A stretch of 64,000 nt of DNA, from the NCBI RefSeq assembly GCF_009663145.1, contig NZ_VKHR01000011.1, positions 1 to 64,000 on the forward strand. The letters are read 5' to 3'. The position numbers and the translations under genes were made by a program. Of this stretch, positions 37,058 through 57,195 are shown piece after piece. Under the pieces are notes generated by a model. That model did not search any database, was not told the DNA's origin, and saw only the letters and a program-made list of their open reading frames with translations. Each line of letters starts with the position of its first letter. Positions within the stretch are counted from its first letter, which is position 1. This stretch comes from Shewanella sp. TC10. GTDB taxonomy: Bacteria; Pseudomonadota; Gammaproteobacteria; Enterobacterales; Shewanellaceae.

Positions 37058-37340
37058 CTAGGGCCTGTTGAACTTTGTTGGTTAAATTTTGTTCGAAGTA
37101 AAAGCGTTTTAATCGAGGCGGATGACTTGATGCCTAGTCATCTAAGCACCTTTCACTTACAAAGATGCATCCAACAAAGAGTAAAACGCTTTTAGTCGAA
37201 CCCTTTGGGCAGCGTTTGTTGAACATTTTTACTGCGTTATCGACTTTTTATGTAGAATAACTACACCGCAAAGTCTCTGCCTTGTATAAATGGCCAACAA
37301 TTCGCTGCAAAAACAACCTTGAAAGTTCAACAGGCCCTAG
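37058..37340 (+). mobile_element. MITE-like repeat element, copy 1
   Basis: A 283-base noncoding element, repeated at 56913-57195 in the same orientation with about 20 substitutions and no indel by hand alignment. Terminal inverted repeats CTAGGGCCTGTTGAACTTT (37058-37076) and AAAGTTCAACAGGCCCTAG (37322-37340) are perfect. Internal stems: AAAAGCGTTTT (37100-37110) with AAAACGCTTTT (37183-37193), extended by GTTCGA/TCGAAC; GCAGCG...(37209-) with ...CGCTGC (-37308); GATGAC/GTCATC (37121-37142). No ORF of note. Both ends are CTAG; no longer target duplication is visible. Sits between yoaA and tsaB. Confidence 0.82.
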
Positions 37341-52312: not shown

Positions 52313-52338
52313 TAGATTAATTGAAAAGGAGAAACATT

Positions 52339-52758
52339 ATGGTCACAATTGAGCAAATCATGAGCCCAAGGGTTGTCACCGTAGAAATGGATGATCGCAT
52401 CAGCACTGCCAAAGAAATCTTTGATAATGTGCCTTTTCATCACTTAGTCGTGTTGGATGAAAACAAAACAATATCTGGGATTTTGGCACGTACTGATTTA
52501 ATCAATGCCATCAGCCCCAACTTAGGTACAGCGGCGGAGCTCACTCGTGATATTGAAACCCTAAATAAACGAGTGCATCAGGTCATGGCCCATGGTCCAA
52601 TTTCTGTGGCTCCTTCCCTCGATATTGATACTGCTGCGCAATTAATGTTAACCAAAGGAATAACTTGTTTTCCTGTTTTACAAGAAGATGAATTAATTGG
52701 AATCGTCAGCTGGCGAGATTTACTAGGTCATTATTGTGGATTAACTAAAGGCCAATAA
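52339..52758 (+). CDS. tandem CBS domain protein
   Basis: 139 residues, essentially two CBS motifs (about 4-58 and 76-132): IMSPRVVTVEMDDRIS and VMAHGPISVAPSLDIDTAAQLML. Such stand-alone pairs bind adenosine nucleotides and regulate partners; the partner here is unknown. The start is ATG at 52339, right after AAGGAGAAACATT; the TTG at 52321 is in the leader. A 13-base tandem array begins on its stop codon. Confidence 0.88.
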   Translation: MVTIEQIMSPRVVTVEMDDRISTAKEIFDNVPFHHLVVLDENKTISGILARTDLINAISPNLGTAAELTRDIETLNKRVHQVMAHGPISVAPSLDIDTAAQLMLTKGITCFPVLQEDELIGIVSWRDLLGHYCGLTKGQ

Positions 52759-52931
52759 CTAAGAACAGTAACTAAGAACAGTAACTAAGAACAGTAACTA
52801 AGAACAGTAACTAAGAACAGTAACTAAGAACAGTAACTAAGAACAGTAACTAAGAACAGTAACTAAGAACAGTAACTAAGAACAGTAACTAAGAACAGTA
52901 ACTAAGAACAGTAACTAAGAACAGTAACTAA
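52756..52931. repeat. 13-bp tandem repeat array, 13.5 copies
   Basis: Unit TAACTAAGAACAG repeated without visible variation from the stop codon of the CBS gene for 176 bases (13 full units plus seven bases). Period 13 is not a multiple of three, and each unit carries TAA, so it is not coding in any frame. Confidence 0.95.
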
Positions 52932-56912: not shown

Positions 56913-57195
56913 CTAGGGCCTGTTGATCTTTGCTGGTTAAGTTTTGTTCTAAATAAAAGCATTTTAATCGAGGCGGATGAATTGATGCCTAGTCATCTAA
57001 GCCCCTTTTATTTACAAAGATGCATTCAACAAAGAGTAAAATGCTTTTAGTCGAACCCTCTGGGCAGCGTTTGTTGGCCATTTTTACTGCGTTACCGACT
57101 TTTTATGTAGAATAACTACACTACAAAGTCTCTGCCTTGTATAAATGGCCAACAATTCGCTGCAAAAACAATCTTGAAAGATCAACAGGCCCTAG
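56913..57195 (+). mobile_element. MITE-like repeat element, copy 2
   Basis: Second 283-base copy of the element at 37058-37340. Terminal repeats CTAGGGCCTGTTGATCTTT (56913-56931) and AAAGATCAACAGGCCCTAG (57177-57195) are perfect to each other yet differ from copy 1 at one paired position. Internal stem AAAAGCATTTT (56955-56965) with AAAATGCTTTT (57038-57048) also differs from copy 1 by a paired change. GTTGGCCATTT/AAATGGCCAAC pairs fully here but has two mismatches in copy 1. Confidence 0.82.

Follow-up and report, generated by a model that had tools for sequence, protein, structure and literature searches.

The usual description of a bacterial MITE is two insertion sequence (IS) ends enclosing a filler that folds. 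BIME/REP pairs consist of two inverted hairpins with a spacer between them. Among MITEs of other bacteria, the Correia elements of Neisseria (CREE, or NEMIS) feature terminal repeats, a target duplication and a terminal TA, according to the accessible part of one source (PMC2229807), and the accessible part of another gives the terminal repeats as TATAG(C/T)GGATTAA (PMC2649163). Within Shewanella, the available text of a later paper describes SonMITE_1 of Shewanella oneidensis as a MITE with promoter-like sequence (Romine et al. 2008, as cited in PMC10969869).

The window analysed here, a 64,000-nucleotide stretch of contig NZ_VKHR01000011.1 from Shewanella sp. TC10, contains two copies of a non-autonomous Shewanella MITE that combines features of these systems. 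Like the Correia elements it has terminal repeats, a target duplication and a terminal TA, and like IS5-family MITEs it shares its terminal repeats with an IS, duplicates TA, carries no gene and reaches high copy number. Its two inverted hairpins with a spacer recall the BIME/REP pairs, from which it departs in its terminal repeats, its TA duplication and its modules, which are ~83 bases long and have conserved loops. The difference from other IS5-family MITEs lies in the interior, where two inverted structured modules recur in elements with other terminal repeats. In this case conservation lies in the filler, a structured module whose stems covary and whose loops are fixed, present as an inverted pair at near-constant spacing in elements that differ in their ends. 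Such conservation makes an old question testable, namely whether selection acts on the secondary structure of MITEs, to whose benefit and on which of the two strands. SonMITE_1 could belong to this family as well. No paper was recognised as describing the element in literature searches that covered neither ISfinder nor most subscription papers, and module strings, one per strand, found no match in the literature text searched, nor did Correia core strings.

The Shewanella element and its probable IS5-family partner

The element is inserted at YTAR with duplication of TA. Both ends carry TA in 133 of 149 copies, with the exact form YTAGGG...CCCTAR in 106, and the empty site of window copy 1 in a relative (G031) consists of a single CTAG, so the TA is duplicated on insertion. 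In another species (G028, locus L098) the same CTAG site is occupied by the element in the orientation opposite to that at window positions 37058-37340. Copy 2 spans 56916-57192 on the + strand, bounded by target duplications at 56914-56915 and 57193-57194. Its left terminal inverted repeat, GGGCCTGTTGATCTTT (56916-56931, + strand), is common to an IS5-family IS of relatives, and the right repeat (57177-57192, - strand) was likewise matched to IS ends of relatives. Between them lie the left structured module (56954-57049, sense strand +), a linker of 22 bases with a small CCC/GGG hairpin (57050-57071), whose length is similar in distant relatives, and the right structured module (57072-57154, sense strand -). 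Copy 1 (37061-37337), the copy with an empty site in one relative, is likewise on the + strand, with its left module at 37099-37194 (+) and its right module at 37217-37299 (-). No open reading frame of at least 100 amino acids overlaps either window copy. Rfam 15 covariance models gave 0 matches at the gathering threshold in the window and, in eight loci, sub-threshold matches only, none of them placed on the element.

In its own genome the element is represented by 40 scored matches among 106 first-look candidates, and matches occurred in 30 of the 60 genomes searched, its own included (29 of the 59 others). Among the matches listed from an 18-mer scan were Shewanella, Psychromonas, Rheinheimera, Algicola, Pseudoalteromonas, Alteromonas, Porticoccus, Alcanivorax and others. 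At 14 of 149 copies, a count limited by flank length, an open frame that runs for 80 codons or more terminates in the TAG of the element boundary, and insertion at TAA or TAG restores a stop codon. Three loci (L110, L336 and L321) feature MITE-MITE and MITE-IS arrays with one TA in common, as if the flanking CTAG were a preferred new target. Miniature derivatives of ~56 bases at L062 (509-564) and L068 (from 1270) retain terminal repeats, one of them decayed in L068, and lack the modules; their inner sequence is identical in both places.

Several Shewanella genomes encode an IS5-family IS of 883-887 bp that has the ends TAGGG(T/C)(C/T/G)TGTTGA(T/C)(C/G)TTT in common with the MITE and sometimes directly adjoins MITE copies; the transposase that was examined scores 278.6 bits to NF033580 (transpos_IS5_3). 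A search by terminal-repeat spacing revealed no autonomous partner in the first 285 loci, and the IS was found later via a search of the genus for IS5-type transposases. In the TC10 genome, none of the transposase families DDE_Tnp_1, DDE_3 (sought because the TA target suggested it), DDE_Tnp_1_2 and NF033580 was detected, and DDE_Tnp_1_2 is present in just 11 of 75 genomes of the genus. Six other genomes with IS5-type IS were inspected. In the distant G600, the IS ends (TAGGGCGTGTTAACACTAAT) and MITE ends (TAGGGCCTGTTAACACTA) are alike, yet unlike those of Shewanella; the match was partial in G645 and absent in G198 and G503, and no clear IS ends could be delimited in G040 and G345. Most likely, the MITE is moved in trans by an IS5-family transposase, which would recognise its terminal repeats, insert it at YTAR and duplicate the TA.

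Covariation in the inner hairpins

A reading of the window made from sequence alone had proposed that compensatory changes preserve stems between the two copies. The stretches 37058-37340 and 56913-57195, which lie 19,855 bases apart in the same orientation, differ at 20 of 283 positions (93% alike), and both compensated pairs named in that reading are exact in both copies: A37072/T37326 of the outer repeat corresponds to T56927/A57181, and G37106/C37187 of the inner stem to A56961/T57042. The stem mismatch noted in copy 1 is also real, with A37222 opposite C37294 and A37223 opposite G37293. On their own, the two window copies prove little, because 2 both-side changes among 96 consensus pairs are near chance: 20 random differences yield 0.45 on average, with P(>=2) = 0.069. 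Folding is far better than that of shuffled sequences (z -9.1 to -10.3) for either RNA strand of copy 2, for its + strand as DNA (z -10.3) and for copy 1 as RNA on the + strand.

The consensus fold was built on 149 full-length copies (152 less 3 duplicates) and tested on 229 unique copies, after 80 of 84 further full copies had been added; the alignment was confined to full-length copies, leaving out 50 partial HMM matches (both strands counted). The fold comprises the outer terminal repeats, a left hairpin (alignment columns 34-144), the small CCC/GGG hairpin and a right hairpin (columns 152-251). The comparison with a phylogenetic null that the sequence-only reading had suggested gave 1,657 Watson-Crick cells changed on both sides versus 470 expected when columns evolved independently on the tree, while sliding partners by one or two columns gave 261-316. 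In a strict test of all column pairs, just 4 pairs passed, 3 within the structure and 1 adjacent to it. A pair-specific tree null was adopted after this result, and with it p<0.05 was reached in 41 of 96 pairs by G-test and in 37 of 96 by covarying cells.

The covariation sits in the two inner hairpins and hardly in the terminal repeats. Both-changed cells numbered 892 versus 180 expected on the tree in the left hairpin and 518 versus 149 in the right, compared with 177 versus 117 in the terminal repeats, where 2 of 19 pairs had p<0.05. These counts per part place the outer-repeat example in the weakest part of the signal and the inner-stem example in the strongest, and the suggestion that the ends are kept matched during transposition is not supported as the main cause. 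The nested stems that had been proposed fared unevenly. GCAGCG/CGCTGC and GACTTT/AAAGTC are paired in 92.8% and 91.7% of cells over the 229 copies, respectively, whereas GATGAC/GTCATC is broken in copy 2 (GATGAA) and paired in just 56.8%; the actual partner of that arm is formed by columns 107-115, with 84.4% of cells paired and 415 both-changed cells.

Within the module hairpin, the internal-loop and apical-loop sequences CAAGGC ... TTATT ... AACGC are conserved while the stems covary freely, so that the loops are the conserved part of the modules and the stems the variable part. The folded shape matters, because paired letters changed together while the loops stayed unchanged. With compensation persisting against the tree-based null in the large alignment, and with loops conserved and stems variable, the proposal that the folded form is under selection is supported.

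Homologous modules across taxa

A covariance model (R1) was built from right hairpins alone, read on the - strand, using an alignment (A1) of 28 sequences that comprised 22 of the 34 modules of a first set plus six more. A1 itself contains 131 both-changed cells, versus 38 when shuffled and 20-42 with slid partners. R1 found the left hairpin on the opposite strand in 13 of 23 sources as a full-length match and in one as a partial match, while nine sources had none. Scores of the full-length left partners ranged from 59 bits (Porticoccus) down to those of the copies in the window, 31 and 28 bits, where the left modules of copy 2 (56954-57049) and copy 1 scored 31.3 bits (E=1.4e-5) and 27.9 bits (E=1.2e-4), respectively. 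A broader model (R2), with training rows from 42 loci, matched the left and right modules of copy 1 with 36.8 bits (E=7.8e-8) and 81.1 bits (E=1.1e-20), and those of copy 2, a copy that is among its training rows, with 39.9 bits (E=9.4e-9) and 88.2 bits (E=1e-22). When the left hairpin was compared with the reverse-complemented right hairpin as plain sequence, the similarity was not significant (P=0.087); the homology shows with the covariance model and in other genera. Judged by these model matches, the two hairpins are homologous modules in inverted orientation.

In a sample of 274 genomes of the class R1 matched 44, and in a sample of 299 of the phylum it matched 50, the TC10 genome being included in both. 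When 29 loci of the class search were re-examined, 18 had a full opposite-strand partner, one a partial (E=7e-4) and one a weak partial (0.066), and nine had none. All 29 twin pairs in the alignment of class-wide modules (A2) are arranged + then -, with the sense strands inward, and their gaps are narrowly distributed, with 18 of exactly 23 bases and 26 of 29 within 22-24. One edge of the A2 tree splits the partners in 28 of 29 pairs, with an edge support of only 0.38, and because of this separation the left and right types may be old paralogues. Many Gammaproteobacteria contain twin elements whose gap is 22-24 bases and whose terminal repeats differ, and element length stays within 258-290 in the 30 elements measured, while the terminal repeats differ strongly between taxa. 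Among 12 inspected loci with a single match, three (L393, L253 and L269) contain elements of just 160-177 bp that have a single module. An exact module 19-mer was absent from the viral contigs searched, and with at most 1 mismatch it was found in 7 of 398 phylum genomes, including that of TC10. Small genomes of one group outside the class (f55; G188, G123 and others) are rich in R1 matches, with as many as 15 (of 15 scored) in one genome. In a plasmid collection, matches fell on 12 large records (H1-H12, 0.6-1.8 Mb) from Vibrio, Pseudoalteromonas and Catenovulum, with up to 13 places per record.

The Correia elements of Neisseria may carry a relative of the module. Their core features ACAAGGCG ... 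CAACGCCG inside a stem in the register of the module, and individual copies read CAAGGCG...GGCAACGC in the same register. Exact module motifs with a flanking stem of 18-20 bp were present in 3 of 5 loci scanned; the remaining Correia locus had a stem of 7 and the ERIC locus none. Run without filters on nine loci, R2 gave its best score to one Correia copy (E=5.5e-4), with others at 0.08-1.1 and one at 8.9. R1 misses the Correia elements, returning no match to E=10 with filters (11 loci) and 8.9 bits (E=0.23) without. They also differ in having one module where the Shewanella MITE has two, and their terminal repeats, with the pattern TATAG(C/T)GGATTAA, are unlike those of the Shewanella MITE (GGGCCTGTTGATCTTT). 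If the link is true, a long-studied bacterial MITE joins a much wider family. ERIC, a palindromic MITE of enterobacteria, has AAGGCG at the position of the 5' loop of the module in the one copy that was read, but no match is seen at the 3' loop there, and its R2 score of 10.6 bits (E=0.031 in 686 bases) is of a kind common in 73 kb of other sequence. Membership of ERIC in the family is not supported by this copy.

A broad evolutionary picture can be sketched, although we regard it as tentative and rather doubtful as a whole. An ancient mobile structured module, probably RNA, would have spread as an inverted pair of distinct paralogues in MITEs across Gammaproteobacteria and beyond, keeping its fold and spacing while the terminal repeats were swapped to suit whichever IS5-family transposase was available. 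The single-module elements and the Correia elements would be branches of one superfamily, and the fold a selfish function needed to spread.

Strand, branch level and a proposed role of the fold

On internal branches of the tree, single changes from Watson-Crick to wobble pairs are skewed towards the + strand in the left hairpin, with a GU:AC ratio of 42:9, and towards the - strand in the right one, where the ratio read on + is 12:30. It would thus be as a single strand that each hairpin acts. Counted on the module sense strand, the ratio over both hairpins is 72:21 (p=1e-7) on internal branches, compared with 158:154 on terminal branches (Fisher p=5e-6 for internal versus terminal). The bias is absent from transitions in unpaired columns, at 110:121 on internal and 133:176 on terminal branches. 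Within seven genomes, singletons gave 37:40 and included one compensating double change and three uncompensated. The class-wide modules of A2 gave 81:11 on the sense strand, a ratio that leans because A2 was gathered with R1, which tolerates GU. The earlier choice between a DNA cruciform and RNA is narrowed by the internal-branch wobble to a single strand per hairpin; the wobble counts do not separate RNA from single-stranded DNA, of which we judge RNA the likelier.

Coincident changes exceeded those of slid partners both on internal branches (146 vs 20-43) and on terminal branches (154 vs 53-76), and double Watson-Crick changes numbered 116 and 110, respectively. Columns conserved across the class were spared on terminal branches (3.28 vs 8.47 changes per column) and among singletons (0.13 vs 0.27, p=0.0015), while paired and unpaired columns changed almost equally on terminal branches (7.38 vs 8.05). 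These data suggest folding of a single strand, with the strongest constraint on the fold in multiplying lineages, and the internal versus terminal wobble contrast suggests selection for spread more than host benefit. Purely neutral decay of single copies is not fully supported, because terminal-branch coincident changes exceed the controls and class-conserved columns are spared. Terminal branches may contain pre-insertion evolution, and some constraint on resident copies is possible.

The explanation that we prefer, and to which we would give about an even chance, is that folded single-strand modules, most likely RNA, aid the propagation of an IS5-mobilised MITE and do not mainly serve the neighbouring host gene. 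Two homologous structured modules, 22 bases apart in the window copies, lie inverted between the terminal repeats, and each would work as a folded single strand, most likely RNA from read-through transcription. The inversion means that, whichever way round the element is inserted, a transcript of either strand would carry one sense module. The fold would promote propagation, for instance through contact with a transposition factor or a host factor, and would not be kept mainly for the sake of the adjacent gene.

Single-stranded DNA hairpins, extruded or exposed by replication and recognised by a replication or transposition protein, represent the main rival to RNA, credible but somewhat unlikely, where inversion would supply either strand with one correct hairpin. 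The element folds well as DNA and is symmetrical under strand exchange, and a role in mobility would agree with sense wobble being confined to internal branches. No module was found by R1 inside the IS (for example, at L321 1452-2338), which would make the modules an aid to a passenger. However, a DDE transposase is indicated by the TA duplication together with the IS5-like ends. Such enzymes act on double-stranded DNA.

An RNA element that serves or tames a host gene in place, through mRNA stability, RNase III processing or insulation, as reported for Correia/NEMIS and ERIC, is unlikely here. In its favour, the copies are intergenic, with none of 46 loci inside a long open reading frame, RNase III is reported to cleave Correia transcripts in the accessible part of one paper (PMC10969869), and terminal branches show both an excess of coincident changes and a partial sparing of class-conserved columns. 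It is made less likely by the wobble contrast, as preference for sense wobble vanishes on terminal branches and among singletons, and by orientation relative to neighbouring genes, which is unbiased (13 vs 14 tandem); the nearly equal rates of paired and unpaired columns on terminal branches also count against it. Self-correction of palindromes by template switching, in which a change in one arm is copied to the other without selection, would yield simultaneous double stem changes such as those seen on internal and terminal branches, but is very improbable, decisively because the loops and not the stems are conserved, and also given that the terminal repeats covary least, internal-branch wobble is strand-biased and the module sequence is recognisable across genera.

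Elsewhere in the window, a tandem array of ~13 copies of a 13-base unit (AAGAACAGTAACT) occupies 52748-52929, just past the end of an open reading frame (52321-52758) that may encode a CBS-domain protein.
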